Below are positions 649 to 50,427 of a DNA stretch of 64,000 nucleotides, piece by piece. The stretch comes from Methanoplanus limicola DSM 2279. Its GTDB lineage: Archaea > Halobacteriota > Methanomicrobia > Methanomicrobiales > Methanomicrobiaceae. Position 1 is the first letter of the stretch. Each line of letters starts with the position of its first letter. The notes under the pieces are model-generated. The model ran no database searches. It saw nothing but the letters and a program-made list of their open reading frames with translations, and had not been told where the DNA came from. A program made the translations under genes and the position numbers. The DNA lies in NCBI RefSeq assembly GCF_000243255.1, contig NZ_CM001436.1, positions 2,588,635 to 2,652,634 on the forward strand, written 5' to 3'.

Positions 649-1488
649 TTAAATTACCTCATAATTCCGGTTAAAATCCCTTCCGTAAATCCGCCCGACA
701 GAAACAGAGACGTTTTCGGTATCCGCCGGAACAGGGTCTGTACGTATAAAAAATCCAATCGCATCACCGTCCCACCTGACAGAGTTAAAGCGTGTAAACT
801 CCTCTGCATCCCTGCCGGTTACAGAAATACTGCCGTTCAGCACAGGTCCGGGTGGCATATTGCTCTTATTCTGCGGGGTTGCAACCTCTTTGATAAACAT
901 TGCATGGGCCACAAAGTAAAACTCTGAACTCTTATTGGTAAACTCTGCGGACTCAAGTTTTACATCAAGACCGTCCTTGCAGAAAGATATCCCCGGATAC
1001 AATTTCATGTTCAGTGCACCCCTGGATTCAACATCATCGGGAAGTTTCTGAGCATACATCTCCGGATTGGAAGGCGTGATCATCGGCCCCTGGCTCACTT
1101 TCCGGTCAATTACATCGCCCGAACTTCCGACTGTGATGGTTATATACTGCAAAAGTCCGTATCCTTTGGAAGGATATGGCGAGAAATGAAATGTATAGAT
1201 GGTTTTTCCGTCTTCTCCGACTGTAACTTTGCTTTCATACTCTCCAGGATCGCTGCCCCCGGTCACATTGGTGAGGGCAGAATCATTAAGGGCGATTAAC
1301 AGTGCCTCATCTTCGGTAATTCCACCGTCCTCCTGAATACACCCACATACTGCACAGACGGATATTATTGTGACTGCCACCATTATTGTTATCATTATAG
1401 CCGGCAACCTGCCGGACATATGTCCCAAATTTATATCTAAATCCAAATCATCTAATTTCATTTTATTACTCAACGGAATTTTATTCAT
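649..1488 (-). CDS. Secreted lipoprotein of unknown function
   Basis: The protein has a hydrophobic segment ending in a lipobox-like VCAVCGC, so it is probably exported and lipid-anchored by the Cys of CGC; the rest (about 230 residues) is predicted to be extracellular. The N-terminal acidic stretch before the signal segment is unusually long (about 30 residues). The frame could be opened by TTG at 1500, but I prefer ATG at 1488 because a TATAAAA element reads on the minus strand at 1518-1512, about 27 nt upstream, which would give a leaderless transcript. An internal ATG nearer the signal segment is also possible. It is followed at 2 nt by a membrane protein gene. No catalytic motif seen. 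Confidence 0.75.
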   Translation of the reverse strand: MNKIPLSNKMKLDDLDLDINLGHMSGRLPAIMITIMVAVTIISVCAVCGCIQEDGGITEDEALLIALNDSALTNVTGGSDPGEYESKVTVGEDGKTIYTFHFSPYPSKGYGLLQYITITVGSSGDVIDRKVSQGPMITPSNPEMYAQKLPDDVESRGALNMKLYPGISFCKDGLDVKLESAEFTNKSSEFYFVAHAMFIKEVATPQNKSNMPPGPVLNGSISVTGRDAEEFTRFNSVRWDGDAIGFFIRTDPVPADTENVSVSVGRIYGRDFNRNYEVI

Positions 1489-1549
1489 AGCCCACTTCAA
1501 TCATATGTTTTTTTTATACATCCCGAATTCTTTATTTATGTCCGGAAAT

Positions 1550-2263
1550 TCACTCATTTTTGCCGGAACTATTCAGCAGGAGATCAGCACGGGTACTCTT
1601 ACCGGAAAAGTATTCCGGTGGAATAATATGCAGCGGTTCATGTATGCCGGATTTCCGGTACACAACCCTGCCATTCACACTGGATATGGAAACTTTGCTT
1701 ATATTGTAATCTTCAGTCTGTATCCTGAAATTATAGATTATATTTCCATCATTCTGACCTGTCACATCAAATGTGTAATACGGCTGCCCATCCATCATGT
1801 ACGGTGAAATGCCCTGATCTCTGATATCTGATAGTGCCAGTTCCAGTGCCTCATCATGACTCACATGATGAATATCATTATTATCCCCGTTCATCATCCC
1901 CGGAGGTCTTGGCGGCGGATATGAACCTCCGACATATACAACCCTTCCGTCCATGCTTACCATCGGAATCACCTGTCCGGCCGGAAAACCGTCATCGGCA
2001 TACTTCTGTATGATAATCATATAGACATACCCTTCCGGAGATTCTGCCACTGCATAATCAGACACAGTATAATTCACACCGCCAATATCAGCCAGAACCT
2101 CAGAGTTCTGAAGAGAAAGCTCAACGGCCTCAGCATAAGTAATATTTTCAGCAGCACCCCCGCCTGTGGCACTATCAAGGCAGCCGCAGAAAAAAACAGC
2201 CACAATTACCACAGGCAGCAGATAAATCAAATATTCTGATATCCCCATAATCATCATTCCCAA
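1550..2263 (-). CDS. Lipoprotein with PepSY-like repeats
   Basis: The signal segment ends in VAVFFCGC, an archaeal lipobox, so the product should be anchored on the outer face of the membrane. Two similar units follow: one begins near residue 41 (ITYAEAVELSLQNSEV) and one near residue 133 (VSHDEALELALSDI), and each ends in a strand of the form (N/D)GRVVY(V/R). This pattern resembles PepSY domains, which bind or inhibit proteases or act in surface proteins; the assignment is by pattern only. The gene lies upstream of, and in the same orientation as, the lipoprotein/membrane protein pair, with a gap of about 60 nt that contains that pair's own TATA element. Confidence 0.75.
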   Translation of the reverse strand: MGMMIMGISEYLIYLLPVVIVAVFFCGCLDSATGGGAAENITYAEAVELSLQNSEVLADIGGVNYTVSDYAVAESPEGYVYMIIIQKYADDGFPAGQVIPMVSMDGRVVYVGGSYPPPRPPGMMNGDNNDIHHVSHDEALELALSDIRDQGISPYMMDGQPYYTFDVTGQNDGNIIYNFRIQTEDYNISKVSISSVNGRVVYRKSGIHEPLHIIPPEYFSGKSTRADLLLNSSGKNE

Positions 2264-2480
2264 AATGCCGACATATGGCTCACATATTTAACAGGATTCA
2301 CCATAAAATACCAATGCCGGCATTTCCATAAATATATTAATATCTCATCCACCCTTTACTTTTCCCCTGAAGATCTCCAGGAAAAAAACACAGACATACC
2401 ATCACAGATTAATTTTAATTTACTCAAAATAATCCTAATTAAATAATCTTAATTCAAAAACAGATATCAGGAGAGAGACT

Positions 2481-3473
2481 TTGCAGTATAAGGAATTCAT
2501 AAACTTCTCAATATACGAATATGACCTGAATAAGTTTGGGGGAGACTGGGAAAATATCCGGAAATTCATAAAAGATAACCAAATTGACGGCGTTGAAATG
2601 CTTGTAAATTTCGATGAAGTTCCGGCAGGCATTCCGGCAGACATTACCGGAGCTGTGCACCTCCCGTCCTTTACCGGGTGGTACAGACTGAAAACTGATG
2701 ATAATTTCAGGATTCCGGACTACTACCCTAAAGACACTGAGAAATATTATTACGGCGGAAAAAAATACTCAGAGGTAATAGAGAACTTCAGTACCTGCCT
2801 TAAAAATGCCTCCATCCTTAATCCTGCATACGGAGTATATCACGGTGGCTACATAGAGACCGAACAGTCATTCCGCAAAGATAAGTTCTCTTCCGACAGG
2901 GATGTGCTGACTGCCACAGCAGAATTTCTAAATACTGTTGCATCCGGATTTCCCGGTGGAGAACCGCCATTTGCAATATTCATAGAAAACCTCTGGTGTC
3001 CGGGACTGACATTTCTTGAACCTGAGGCAGTGGCAGAATTCTGTGACAGTCTCGAATTTAAAAAGTGGGGGCTGATGCTTGATACCGGACATCTGATGAA
3101 TGCCTCAAAATCCTGCTACACTGAAGAGGAGGGCATAGACTGCGTACTCTCAGTCCTTGACAGGCAGGATAAAAAGGTCATTGATAATATCAAAGGGCTT
3201 CATTTCCACTTCAGTGCATCAGCAGAATATCATAACAGTATGACAGAACCTGACAACTTCCGGGAGATGGAGAACAATGAAAAATTCATGTGTATTATGG
3301 AGCATTTCGGAAAAATTGACCATCACAGGCCGTTTACATCCGAAAGATGCCGTGAGATAATAGATTACATAAAGCCCGATTACCTTACCCACGAGTTTAT
3401 CAAAGAGACATCTGATGAGACTGATTCAGCTCTAAAGCAACAGAAAAAAGCGATTGCAGGATATGAAATATAA
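2481..3473 (+). CDS. Sugar-phosphate isomerase/epimerase-like TIM-barrel protein
   Basis: A 330-residue soluble protein with features of the AP-endonuclease-2/xylose-isomerase-like barrel: early VEMLVNFDEV, a middle strand with IFIENLW (metal-binding Glu position), GLMLDTGHLMNA (Asp-x-Gly-His signature near residue 202) and a later GLHFHFSAS strand with His. These are typical divalent-metal ligands of the superfamily. Substrate cannot be inferred. The start is TTG at 2481, chosen because AGGAGAGA lies 5-12 nt upstream. It is divergent from the lipoprotein genes and monocistronic, with the TnpB element directly downstream. Confidence 0.8.
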   Translation: MQYKEFINFSIYEYDLNKFGGDWENIRKFIKDNQIDGVEMLVNFDEVPAGIPADITGAVHLPSFTGWYRLKTDDNFRIPDYYPKDTEKYYYGGKKYSEVIENFSTCLKNASILNPAYGVYHGGYIETEQSFRKDKFSSDRDVLTATAEFLNTVASGFPGGEPPFAIFIENLWCPGLTFLEPEAVAEFCDSLEFKKWGLMLDTGHLMNASKSCYTEEEGIDCVLSVLDRQDKKVIDNIKGLHFHFSASAEYHNSMTEPDNFREMENNEKFMCIMEHFGKIDHHRPFTSERCREIIDYIKPDYLTHEFIKETSDETDSALKQQKKAIAGYEI

Positions 3474-14524: not shown

Positions 14525-16261
14525 ATGCGGAGGCCGTCTGTGTCAGTGATAAGTACTGTCATAACAGTTACAGCATCTTTCTGCCTGATATCAGCATTTA
14601 TCACCTGCGGTCTTGGTTTTTTTGTCTATGCCCAAAAACCCTCATCCACTGTGCACAGGCTCTTTCTTGCAGTAATGCTTTCAGCGGCGTACTGGGCAAC
14701 GGGCGAATTTTTCATATGGCAGGCAGAAAGCCTTCAGGGAGTGACATTCTGGCTGAAATTCAGCTCATTCTGGCCCATAACAATCGCTCTAAGCTCACAT
14801 TTCATCCTGGAGTTCACAGGCAGACTGCCGGAGGAGAAGAAAAAAAGCAGAATAATCCTCATAGCAGGCATATATGCCCCTGCTATAATACTCTCAATAG
14901 CAGGGATCTTTACAGAATCTCTCTTCACTGCCGCATTTGATCCTGTTGCCGGTTACATATACCTGCCAACCCGGAACAATATCATCTGCCCAATAGAAAT
15001 TTTTTATACTATGGCTATAATGCTCTGGGCACTCTATGTCGGTTTTATCTCCTGGAGGCGCCCGGAGACGGAGAAGAAACACAGACAGAACAGACTTCTC
15101 TTTGCAGGCATCATAACTGTCGTATTCTTCGGAGCACTCTCCGGAGCAGTACTCCCCCTGTTCAGCATTCATACCCCTAACCTTGTCTTCTTTGGTCTTG
15201 TCATCTTCTCCGTCATAATTGCCTGTGCAATACAGCGTTACGGACTTTTCACTTTAAGCCCGGAAACAGCCGTACCTGAGATAATGAAAACGATGCCTGA
15301 CGGACTTATCCTTGCAGATCAGAACGGTATTATCGTTGCCGCAAATGAATCTGCCGCAAAGATATTTCCGGCCTTAAAAGAGCCGGATGCCGGCAGATCT
15401 GTCAGATCACTCATCGGGGATGAGGAATACCTGACAGTCAGGGATATACTGGCAGAACTGGGCGAAATATCCGACTTTGAAGTCCGAATCACAGAAAAAA
15501 CCCAGCAGTATGTAAGCATAGCAGGTTCATCTGTCAGGGACAGAAACAGCACACCTTCCGGAACTGTATTTATCATCAGGGATATTACACAAAGAAAAGC
15601 CTCAGAAACTGCTCTTAGGGTTTCAAATGATAAACTCTCCATGCTGTCAAGACTTACCCGGCATGACATAGGCAACCTTGTAACTGCCCTCTCCGGCTAC
15701 CTCTCAATTCTTGATGGCAGAATTAAAAATCCGGAAGAGAAACATTACCTCTCACAGGCGACCGTCATCGTTGACAGAATTATAGAGCATCTCGAATTCT
15801 CACGCAGCTATCAGGCGATAGGCTCAAAAAAACCGCAATGGGAAAAACTCAGATATGCAATTGATTCTGCAAAAGAAAGTCTGAAAGAGGACAATATTCA
15901 GATCAATATAAATATATCCGATATTGAGATTTACGCAGATCAACTGCTGGTAAAAGTGGTGTACAACCTGTTTGAGAACGCTGTGAGGCATGGCGATAAG
16001 ATAACAGAGATAACTATCACAACTGAAGAGCAGAAAGACGGCAGCATGATCCTGAAATTTGAAGATGACGGAGCAGGCATACCTGAAGAAGAAAAAGAGA
16101 AGATTTTTTCATACGGCTATGGCAGAAACACCGGTTTTGGACTTGCATTTGCACGTGAAATCTTATCAGTTACCGGAATCAGGATAACAGAGAGAGGCTC
16201 ATTTGGAGAGGGTGCATCTTTTGAGATAGAGATACCCGCAGATGTCTGGCGGAAAATCTGA
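14525..16261 (+). CDS. Sensor histidine kinase: 7TM input, PAS, DHp-like and HATPase domains
   Basis: 578 residues. The first about 225 residues carry seven hydrophobic helices of the type found in '7TM histidine kinase N-terminal' domains. A PAS domain follows (about 240-355, PDGLILADQNGIIVAANES). His380 in LTRHDIGN is the likely phosphoacceptor. The HATPase covers about 465-575 with N-box NLFENAVRHG, G1 DDGAGIPEEE and GFGLAFA. It is monocistronic; no response regulator is adjacent. It may act through a receiver encoded elsewhere. Start ATG at 14525 has a weak upstream site. Confidence 0.9.
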   Translation: MRRPSVSVISTVITVTASFCLISAFITCGLGFFVYAQKPSSTVHRLFLAVMLSAAYWATGEFFIWQAESLQGVTFWLKFSSFWPITIALSSHFILEFTGRLPEEKKKSRIILIAGIYAPAIILSIAGIFTESLFTAAFDPVAGYIYLPTRNNIICPIEIFYTMAIMLWALYVGFISWRRPETEKKHRQNRLLFAGIITVVFFGALSGAVLPLFSIHTPNLVFFGLVIFSVIIACAIQRYGLFTLSPETAVPEIMKTMPDGLILADQNGIIVAANESAAKIFPALKEPDAGRSVRSLIGDEEYLTVRDILAELGEISDFEVRITEKTQQYVSIAGSSVRDRNSTPSGTVFIIRDITQRKASETALRVSNDKLSMLSRLTRHDIGNLVTALSGYLSILDGRIKNPEEKHYLSQATVIVDRIIEHLEFSRSYQAIGSKKPQWEKLRYAIDSAKESLKEDNIQININISDIEIYADQLLVKVVYNLFENAVRHGDKITEITITTEEQKDGSMILKFEDDGAGIPEEEKEKIFSYGYGRNTGFGLAFAREILSVTGIRITERGSFGEGASFEIEIPADVWRKI

Positions 16262-16383: not shown

Positions 16384-16520
16384 TTATAGTGCACTGCATA
16401 ATGTTTTGGATTAATCTGAGTGTGACGGATATTATTCCAAATCATGCACTTATACCGCACTTCATAGTAATAAGCAAACTTTCCGGCCCATTCCGCAAAG
16501 TATCTGCATTATAACTATAA
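16384..16520 (+). repeat. 137-bp element with TTATAGT terminal inverted repeats, copy 1
   Basis: The segment begins with TTATAGT (16384-16390) and ends with ACTATAA (16514-16520). An about 85% identical copy of 135 bp lies in opposite orientation at 49560-49694 with the same termini, while flanking sequences differ. Each copy contains an internal hairpin (ACTTTCCGG...CCGGAAAGT type, with one mismatch here) and a short open frame reading MFW... . It may be a MITE-like element, a mobile small gene or a structured RNA. Confidence 0.65.
16401..16514 (+). CDS. Possible 37-residue peptide inside the repeated element
   Basis: ATG at 16401 opens 37 codons beginning MFWINLSVTDIIPNH and ending with TAA at 16512. 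The copy at 49.6 kb has the same frame (MFWDDRSVMEIIPNH) with 27 of the first 34 residues identical. No ribosome site is visible and the conservation may only reflect recent common origin, so this is weakly supported. Confidence 0.2.
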   Translation: MFWINLSVTDIIPNHALIPHFIVISKLSGPFRKVSAL

Positions 16521-48231: not shown

Positions 48232-48954
48232 ATGACAGAATCAGATAAAAAAGGGGAATTTTCGGACAGTATGAAGAAATTCATACAGAGGGTATATCCG
48301 GAATATAGTCCTGAGCTGGTTGAACCTCATCTCGTCTGTATAAAACGATTTGAAGAGAGGTTCTTCTGGCTTGATGAGATCTATGATAACCGGGAGAGAT
48401 ATAATCTCCACTGGGCACTGCATGAAGCCGGAGACATTTTTAAGAGCCTTATGGATGAATCCGGGACGAATATAATCAATTCCATCCAGAAGCACTATAC
48501 TCAGGAAGAGAGGAAAAGGCTTAACGAACTTACATCAAATATGGACCGGGTTGCAAGGGAAAAAGAATCTGCAATCGCACGCAGAACAGAGTACTTCAAT
48601 ACTATATCCAATCTTGTCACACTTGTGGACATAATTATTTCAGTTGTTCTGATTGTCATCATCTCAGAGATTTCCCATGTGGGAAACGCTATTTTTGATC
48701 CGGTCATTCTTGTTCTTATCTTCACCGGAATTGTAGCATTTCTGAAGGTTACACTTGACCGGTTTATTATTATTCCATGGGTTACCGGACTTGGATGGAA
48801 GAAATACCTGAGTGAGGTAGAGGCGACAAGGCAGATTCTGGTTGATGTAGAGGCAGTTAATGTAGTGGTAATAGCGGCGATTAAGGAAGAAAGGGCTCCT
48901 GAGGTGACATATAAACTGATTGAGAGAGGTACCAGGGAGATCTCCCTGATATGA
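48232..48954 (+). CDS. Two-TM membrane protein of unknown function, copy 1
   Basis: 240 residues from ATG 48232. An upstream frame could start at 48112, but the paralogue at 54606 begins at the equivalent residue (SDKKGEF), so I choose 48232. N-terminal helical soluble part (about 1-115), then two membrane helices (near 125-145 and 155-175) and a C-terminal cytoplasmic part (LGWKKYLSEVEATRQILVDVEAVNVVVIAAIKEE). Its stop overlaps the start of a degraded gene. The upstream ACAGCCGGA stretch is also shared with the paralogue. Function unknown. Confidence 0.75.
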   Translation: MTESDKKGEFSDSMKKFIQRVYPEYSPELVEPHLVCIKRFEERFFWLDEIYDNRERYNLHWALHEAGDIFKSLMDESGTNIINSIQKHYTQEERKRLNELTSNMDRVAREKESAIARRTEYFNTISNLVTLVDIIISVVLIVIISEISHVGNAIFDPVILVLIFTGIVAFLKVTLDRFIIIPWVTGLGWKKYLSEVEATRQILVDVEAVNVVVIAAIKEERAPEVTYKLIERGTREISLI

Positions 48955-49521: not shown

Positions 49522-49677
49522 TCAGACACCAAACCTCTTTTTAACAAAATATTGCAGGATTATAGTATAATGCAGAACTTTCCGGAATAATCCGGAAAGT
49601 TTGCTTATTACTATGAAGTGCGGCATAAGTGCATGGTTTGGAATAATCTCCATTACACTCCGATCATCCCAAAACAT
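49522..49677 (-). CDS. Possible 51-residue peptide in the second copy of the repeated element
   Basis: ATG at 49677 (minus) opens MFWDDRSVMEIIPNHALMPH and runs past the element to a TGA at 49522. It keeps the frame of the copy at 16401. No ribosome site. Weak evidence; listed because both copies keep the same frame. Confidence 0.18.
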   Translation of the reverse strand: MFWDDRSVMEIIPNHALMPHFIVISKLSGLFRKVLHYTIILQYFVKKRFGV

Positions 49678-49694
49678 TATGCGATGCACTATAA
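49560..49694 (-). repeat. 135-bp element with TTATAGT terminal inverted repeats, copy 2
   Basis: Inverted relative to copy 1 at 16384-16520. Ends TTATAGT (49560) and ACTATAA (49694); the internal palindrome ACTTTCCGGA/TCCGGAAAGT (49577-49586/49591-49600) is a perfect 10-bp stem with a 4-nt loop. Confidence 0.65.
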
Positions 49695-49875: not shown

Positions 49876-50427
49876 ATGAAAGATAATAAATTCGGCAAAT
49901 GGATTATTCCGGCAGTATTACTTATGATTGTACTGCTCACCCTGCCTGTTATGGGTTCACCAGTTGTTAACCGGGATGTTTCGGTTTCAGGAGATAAGGC
50001 AGAAGTCACTTTTACAGTTGAATCAGATGAACCGTTCGCAGTCGGAATTTTAGAGACTGTACCTGACGGATGGGTTTTTGCAGAGGACGACAGTATGACC
50101 TCTTCATCAGGAAACTTTGAGACTGACCAAAAAAACAGCAAAATAGCGTTTTTTCTCTCGGATGAAAAGTCAGTATCATATGAGCTGACCGGAAACGGAG
50201 ACGGGAAGACGGGGTTTAAGACTGAATGGGTAGACCTCCTGACACTTACTCCGGATATGAAAGAAGGAAAGGAGAGATGGACAGCACTTGGTATTGGTGC
50301 TGTGGAAGAGAAAGGCAGTCCGGATTCAGGTATGGAGAAGAGTCCCGGATTTGGAATTATTGCGGTAATTGCAGCATTTATCGCAACCGGAGCAGTTCTG
50401 GCAATATCCGGCAGAAAGGAGGAATGA
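49876..50427 (+). CDS. Secreted surface protein with PGF-CTERM-like sorting signal
   Basis: 183 residues: a signal peptide (KWIIPAVLLMIVLLTLPVMGS), a beta-rich extracellular part of about 120 residues and a C-terminal SPGFGIIAVIAAFIATGAVLAI helix followed by SGRKEE. The PGF motif before a hydrophobic helix and basic end is the archaeosortase A signal, by which the protein is cleaved and lipid-linked. As the first gene of the importer operon it could be a cell-surface binding or docking protein for the transported chelate. Four nt before the next gene. Confidence 0.8.
   Translation: MKDNKFGKWIIPAVLLMIVLLTLPVMGSPVVNRDVSVSGDKAEVTFTVESDEPFAVGILETVPDGWVFAEDDSMTSSSGNFETDQKNSKIAFFLSDEKSVSYELTGNGDGKTGFKTEWVDLLTLTPDMKEGKERWTALGIGAVEEKGSPDSGMEKSPGFGIIAVIAAFIATGAVLAISGRKEE

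Follow-up and report, generated by a model that had tools for sequence, protein, structure and literature searches.

Repeats of about 130 bp in Methanoplanus limicola are probably IS630-type miniature transposons with two covarying hairpins

Introduction

The window analysed here, i.e., the whole stretch of 64 kb at positions 2588635-2652634 of one 3.20-Mb contig of Methanoplanus limicola DSM 2279, contains the same short repeat twice and in opposite orientation. This raises the question whether the repeat is a mobile element, and if so of which family and moved by what, or rather a conserved RNA. The initial annotation of the window named both readings, i.e., a MITE-like element of this genome or a conserved small RNA. 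A full-text search of the literature on Methanoplanus transposable elements and transposases and on MITEs of Methanomicrobiales found no description of the element. Given the evidence below, we consider it very likely that the repeat represents a MITE, i.e., a miniature transposon that is non-autonomous, and that it is of the IS630/Tc1-mariner type.

Results

Two copies within the window

Both copies were recovered where the initial annotation had placed them (Table 1), on opposite strands and each with the TTATAGT/ACTATAA ends it had described. The high likeness it noted holds as well, with the exact figure moving from about 85% to 88% (BLAST, whole element). The repeat had been delimited as 137 bp. 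This extent is too large, since the outermost TA at either end belongs to the duplicated target, which leaves mobile units of 131 bp (copy 1) and 129 bp (copy 2). Where an internal hairpin had been reported, each copy forms two, and the folds beat those of shuffled sequences on both strands (z = -2.5/-3.6 for copy 1 and -6.8/-5.9 for copy 2).

Table 1. Coordinates of the two copies within the window and of their parts
Feature	Positions	Strand	Basis or remark
Copy 1 as first reported	16384..16520	+	duplicated target TA at 16385-16386 and 16518-16519
Copy 1 mobile unit, 131 bp, TAGTGC...AACTA	16387..16517	+	empty sites of related copies; 43-copy comparison
Copy 1 left hairpin core	16401..16445	+	covariation (helix 18-35/49-64 of alignment A2)
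Copy 1 right hairpin, ATAGTAATAAGC...CTAT	16464..16518	+	fold; covariation
Copy 2 as first reported	49560..49694	-	duplicated target TA at 49561-49562 and 49692-49693
Copy 2 mobile unit, 129 bp	49563..49691	-	43-copy comparison
Copy 2 left hairpin core	49633..49677	-	fold; covariation
Copy 2 right hairpin	49562..49614	-	fold; covariation

The neighbours of copy 1 are a gene for a sensor histidine kinase (Pfam HisKA_7TM, PAS, HATPase_c), with its end at 16261, and, from 16545 on, a reading frame of 299 aa that has no Pfam match. For copy 2, the two flanking reading frames, neither with a Pfam match, stop at 48954 and begin at 49876, respectively. The covariance model described below found no third copy in the 64-kb window; one additional weak match falls on copy 2, read from the other strand. 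No Rfam 15 family reaches its curated threshold at the copies, a tRNA being the sole Rfam match in the window. As a separate observation, ACTTTCCGGA with at most one mismatch occurs 19 times in the 64-kb window, compared to 3.7 expected, with four occurrences inside the two copies; TTTCCGG seems to be common in the host genome.

Copies in the host genome

A BLAST search of the host genome with copy 1 returned 28 matches, of which 24 have E <= 2e-4 and 13 cover at least 120 of the 137 bases, such that the repeat is not due to chance. From 20 copies of the own genus (alignment A2) we built the covariance model (CM) R1, which yields 35 matches in the same genome at E <= 2.4e-5, two of them halves of one copy; the CM copies at 267713, 1280721 and 1088751 are known from the model match. 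That is, the host carries about 35 copies. Further copies and conserved ends, the lack of which the initial annotation had named as speaking against its element, were thus found here as well as in relatives (see below).

Among 43 compared copies, 37 have a core of 127-131 bp. TAGT...ACTA is exact in most copies, and beyond it an imperfect terminal repeat, TATAGTnnAnTGCAnAA, is found at both ends. With 129 bp, the element is too short to encode a transposase of its own. Rough ORF calls place the copies mostly in intergenic regions, and a hand count based on these calls finds them sense as well as antisense to the neighbouring genes. The copies fall into at least two subfamilies, of which one is more frequent in the host and the other in the sister species (G001). 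Four short forms without left hairpin (L015, L017, L019, L020) have a common GTGCAC/GCAC junction, while a fifth (L026) shows a different one; the four look like slippage products or like another mobile form, about 70 bp long.

One old copy, at about 1388-3264 of locus L100 (2541500-2546000 of the host contig), is split by a DDE-like insertion sequence. The latter comprises a 312-aa reading frame plus remnants, with ends CAGTACTTTAAAC and an apparent 5-bp TAATC duplication.

Distribution in related genomes

In a CM search of 232 genomes of the order, 16 show matches with E <= 1e-3, namely the two genomes of the own genus, every one of the 12 genomes of g37, which is a genus of another family, and one each of two further genera (g30, g6). 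The class-level search spanned the identical 232 genomes. In searches of more than 40 genomes the best 14 candidates per genome were scored, such that copy numbers there are lower bounds, e.g., at least nine copies in genome G199 of g37. The related copies outside the host are mostly equal in length, and the best ones of g37 keep a span of 134 bases, i.e., the element with TA on each side and one T. The first description as an element "of this genome" is therefore too narrow. The arm patterns gave no matches in collections of genome contigs and viral contigs, from which the own or a very near genome is possibly excluded.

Two repeats were seen next to copies. In the sister species, segments of 200-340 bp beside two copies are repeated with 86-97% identity (L038, L039; contig C1, about 793600-800200). 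In G203 (contig C1), the right flank of one copy (947967-948068) recurs 3 kb downstream (950908-951008) with 91% identity.

Empty sites and target duplication

We sought tags from both sides of 19 host copies in the sister species. The element is absent there at all eight examined loci with both tags conserved close together. For three copies (L001, L012, L020) the tags are further apart, and the counterpart of L020 holds a right-end-like fragment (L062). For the remaining eight, one tag is missing or the tags are found at distant places. One decayed old copy is common to both species (L025 in the host, L040 in the sister). None of the eight aligned loci provides an empty site that can be read to the base, because their intergenic flanks are too diverged.

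Such sites are available within g37. Site 1, which by eye adjoins a CBS-like coding sequence, is filled in G201 and G199 and empty in G203, G204, G208, G210 and G205. The empty form reads GGGCATTATAAC-TTTTTTT and the filled one GGGCG-TTA-[TAGTGC...TTCTA]-TATAA-TTTTTTT, which requires that TA (TATA at the most) was duplicated and that a single base was lost. Site 2 is filled in G199 and G201 (GATACC-TA-[TAGTGC...ATACTA]-TA-ATAGG) and empty in G203 and G208 (GATACC-TA-ATAGG) as well as, with one substitution, in G205 (GATACA-TA-ATAGG); G204, which diverges right of the site, was left out of this count. Site 2 is compatible with a TA duplication only.

This agrees with the 43-copy comparison, where TA is found left of the core in 42 copies, right of it in 36 and on both sides in 35, with a T before the left TA in 38. 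The search for target duplications that the initial annotation had proposed thus ends with TA, as given by the filled and empty sites of the related g37 copies. Given this duplication, the mobile unit, as read from the aligned sites, is the 129 bp TAGTGC...ACTA between two TAs.

A candidate partner with IS630-type ends

DDE_3 (PF13358) was sought in the 16 element-carrying genomes, and eight show matches. In addition, we used a profile (A7) of the DDE part of IS630 elements with TATAGT...TTGCA ends, which matches in 31 of the 232 genomes at E <= 1e-8. The host genome has neither a PF13358 nor an A7 match, i.e., no autonomous partner was found in the host genome itself, and an IS630 gene is also absent from G199 with its at least nine copies. 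Within g37, A7 matches of any kind occur in five of 12 genomes, with full-length close ones in two (G205 and, decayed, G210). IS630 genes and copies of the element coexist in G205, G210 and G135.

The partner-type proteins belong to the IS630 family (Pfam DDE_3, NCBIfam NF033545). For three of the IS630 elements the ends were seen to start with TATAGT followed by TTGCA. A screen of the ends of 18 A7 loci found 13 with a TATAGT...ACTATA pair 1063-1086 bp apart and no such pair for L254, L258, L265, L267 and L269, although L254 has TATAGT at both ends in later end lists. Only five loci (L251 to L255) continue like the MITE, i.e., with TGCA or GCA at the equal place. Their ends, TATAGTnnnTTGCAATAC and TATAGTTAGTTGCATAACATTTTGAAATAAT, are spaced by 1083-1084 bp in L251, L252 and L255 and by 1063 bp in the decayed L253. 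An IS of 1.08 kb with matching ends is thus present in five genomes of the order, once in decayed form, which is the full-size IS whose search had been suggested, located in related genomes.

The left consensus of the MITE is identical to the right end of the L251 IS in 23 of 31 bases, and its right end to the left end of the L255 IS in 18 of 22 bases. The MITE is therefore inverted relative to the IS. The left arms of 35 copies, excluding TATAGT, were turned into a weight matrix, with which we scored 312 distinct TATAGT sites. These stem from loci chosen for these elements and hence are not a random sample. IS right ends score 12.1 (L251), 11.0 (L253), 9.3 (L254), 7.1 (L252) and 2.9 (L255). 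Above and between the top four, there are only ends of MITE copies (among them the CM match L185 with 11.9) and one end of the IS630 element L269 with 7.5. Out of 20000 shuffles of the IS sequence that follows TATAGT, as good a score is reached by none for L251, L253 and L254, by one for L252 and by two for L255. When the right arm is compared to the left ends of the IS, the respective numbers are 35 (L251), 18 (L252), 148 (L253) and 0 (L255), such that this pairing appears as the weaker side of the sequence match.

Two of the IS630-family elements, L225 and L226 (in G135 and G205), illustrate the relation. They have [TA]TAGTnnnnTGCA ends and TA flanks like the MITE, with end similarity over about 31 and 22 bp, and differ by their length of 1084 bp and two overlapping reading frames (163 and 180 aa). 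With its ends matching those of IS630-family IS, the element looks like an IS630 deletion derivative, and the 1.08-kb transposon is, judged by these ends, probably what moves it.

Several other candidates were discarded. The sister species holds an intact IS630 element (L227, 939-2024, 337 aa), whose ends, TATAGTCC, share little more than TATAGT with the MITE. In G209, there are IS630 elements that belong to other groups (ends GTGCCCCTCG) and share TATAGT or less. Three pairs of CM matches in the host were considered as a full-size parent: the pair 891175/892764 flanks a photolyase gene, 2542887/2544672 are the halves of one old copy split by an insertion sequence with TAATC duplication, and 3181226/3182132 are two separate copies. 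For the Y1 fragment L033/L050, nothing related was found. The host genome also contains four 1.57-kb IS200/IS605-type elements of more than 99% identity (L029-L032: 610642-613998, 2096185-2099541, 2114452-2117808 and 544928-548284), each with a TnpB-like frame besides its Y1 gene; one of the four elements is located about 1 kb from a short MITE copy.

Covariation of the two hairpins

We assessed covariation in an alignment of 23 copies from both genera (A6). The two-hairpin structure is paired in 92.5% of the cells, 14 of its 33 pairs are changed on both sides, and several pairs show at least three Watson-Crick types. Doubly changed cells number 51 compared to 13.4 (sd 3.1) in shuffles and at most 15 in slid controls, counted over copies that share descent and thus not independent, as holds for the G.U counts below. 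Covariation is also present, but smaller, within the 20 copies of the own genus. Here, a fold that pairs the two ends and replaces the right hairpin exceeds the controls too; therefore, structure alone does not single out one fold.

The left hairpin shows G.U and A.C pairs at 22:2 in A6, 15:0 in g37 only and 30:11 in the BLAST-collected A2, where the g37 part of A6 was collected by the covariance model, which favours G.U over A.C. The right hairpin does not show such asymmetry (9:13 in A6). Correction of palindromes can yield covariation without function.

Discussion

Alternative explanations

The many copies, precise ends, TA duplication in related copies and a full-size IS630 with matching ends bear out the MITE-like reading of the initial annotation. 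An IS200/IS605 origin, which we favoured at first for the two hairpins and the fixed TTATA, would instead make the repeat a PATE-like element with hairpin ends, which a Y1 transposase working on single strands would place 3' of TTATA with no duplication. The asymmetric ends with two hairpins, the frequent T ahead of the left TA (38 of 43 copies) and the four nearly identical Y1/TnpB elements of the host would all fit, but the empty sites show duplicated TA rather than unduplicated TTATA, which refutes the idea at site 2. Furthermore, Y1_Tnp is found in none of the 12 g37 genomes, all of which carry the element, and the hairpin with which the IS200/IS605 element of the host ends is another one (CCCACGAC..GTCGTGGG), such that we give this origin hardly any credence. 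It is also quite improbable that the MITE belongs to a DDE family other than IS630 and has its TA targets and TATAGT ends by coincidence. The tabulated entry for the 136-bp MITE of Methanospirillum hungatei, which is possibly this element, gives a duplication of 4 bp and assigns no family to its partner (PMC3852290), which would agree with such a family. Against it stand the TA duplication and an end match that runs 31 bp into the IS630 element, well past TATAGT.

The hairpins bring in RNA. If the repeat were a small RNA or an RNA regulatory element that has spread through the genome, is conserved for its function and is mobile only in a secondary way, one would expect the observed covariation (14 of 33 pairs changed on both sides, 51 doubly changed cells vs 13.4) and, from single-stranded use of the plus strand, the G.U excess of the left hairpin. 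The right hairpin lacks this asymmetry (9 to 13), however, and the g37 part of A6 was selected by a G.U-favouring covariance model. Copies are sense and antisense to flanking genes and mostly not at orthologous places, no Rfam match is found at the copies, four of them (L015, L017, L019, L020) entirely lack the left hairpin, and palindrome correction could provide covariation without function. Such a small RNA, which we hold to be improbable, is not needed to explain the copies, while the covarying hairpins may mean that the element also acts as RNA. A milder version, to which we assign a somewhat better though still low chance, is that a structured RNA or single-strand DNA signal is under selection: the left hairpin is paired on one strand across two archaeal families, with G.U and hardly any A.C, and the signal would act in neighbour transcripts or in the element's own spread.

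Proposed mechanism

For the IS630-type MITE, which we prefer, we infer mobilisation in trans. An IS630 element would have lost its transposase region, with its two ends coming to flank the inverted-repeat core. IS630 transposase provided in trans would then have excised the element and inserted it at TA, in both orientations and mostly between genes. Since the host has no IS630 gene, the mobiliser would be lost or located elsewhere, and the about 35 copies might either be stranded or rely on an element that comes and goes. This plain IS630 model leaves the strong covariation of the hairpins unexplained. The compensatory changes between the genera suggest that the two hairpins are either needed, as RNA or single-stranded DNA, or maintained by palindrome correction at replication; any role as RNA would be putative.

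Relation to known elements

An archaeal counterpart of similar size is the MITE of M. hungatei, given in Table 4 of Kamoun et al. (2013, PMC3852290) with 136 bp, six copies, 15-bp repeats, a 4-bp duplication, the partner 'ISHmu1' and no known family. It may be the present element, compared by description only; that entry's 4-bp duplication, 15-bp repeats and lack of a family differ from the TA duplication and IS630 type found here.

Among bacterial elements, all likened by description, RUP of Streptococcus pneumoniae with its partner IS630-Spn1 (107 bp, intergenic, high copy number, TA target, IS630-like ends; as outlined in PMC2229807) resembles the MITE in being small, intergenic, abundant, TA-targeted and IS630-like at its ends. 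The present element differs in being archaeal, in a host without IS630 transposase and in its two separate covarying hairpins. Correia/NEMIS elements of Neisseria, too, have ends that start with TATAGTG. They are of similar size (about 107 or 155 bp), likewise end in TA and duplicate it, and have a hairpin, which forms a stable RNA; the 24-bp terminal repeats, the IHF site of the long form and the proposed RNase III processing, in contrast, are Correia features (same outline, PMC2229807). ERIC/IRU of enterobacteria share small size (127 bp according to the entry in PMC2759123), TA at the termini and target duplication (as described in PMC2229807), while ERIC has 7-bp terminal repeats.

Implications

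Family, target duplication and likely mobiliser can now be given for an element of two distant methanogen genera, and the same may hold for the M. hungatei MITE that was published in 2013 with no family assigned. To the RUP-like kind, i.e., elements with IS630 ends, TA target and about 100-150 bp, an archaeal case is added. It raises the question why a transposon that should move as double-stranded DNA keeps the pairing of two hairpins across genera. If the structured-RNA reading were true, this would be an archaeal mobile element that persists without resident transposase through a role at the RNA level.
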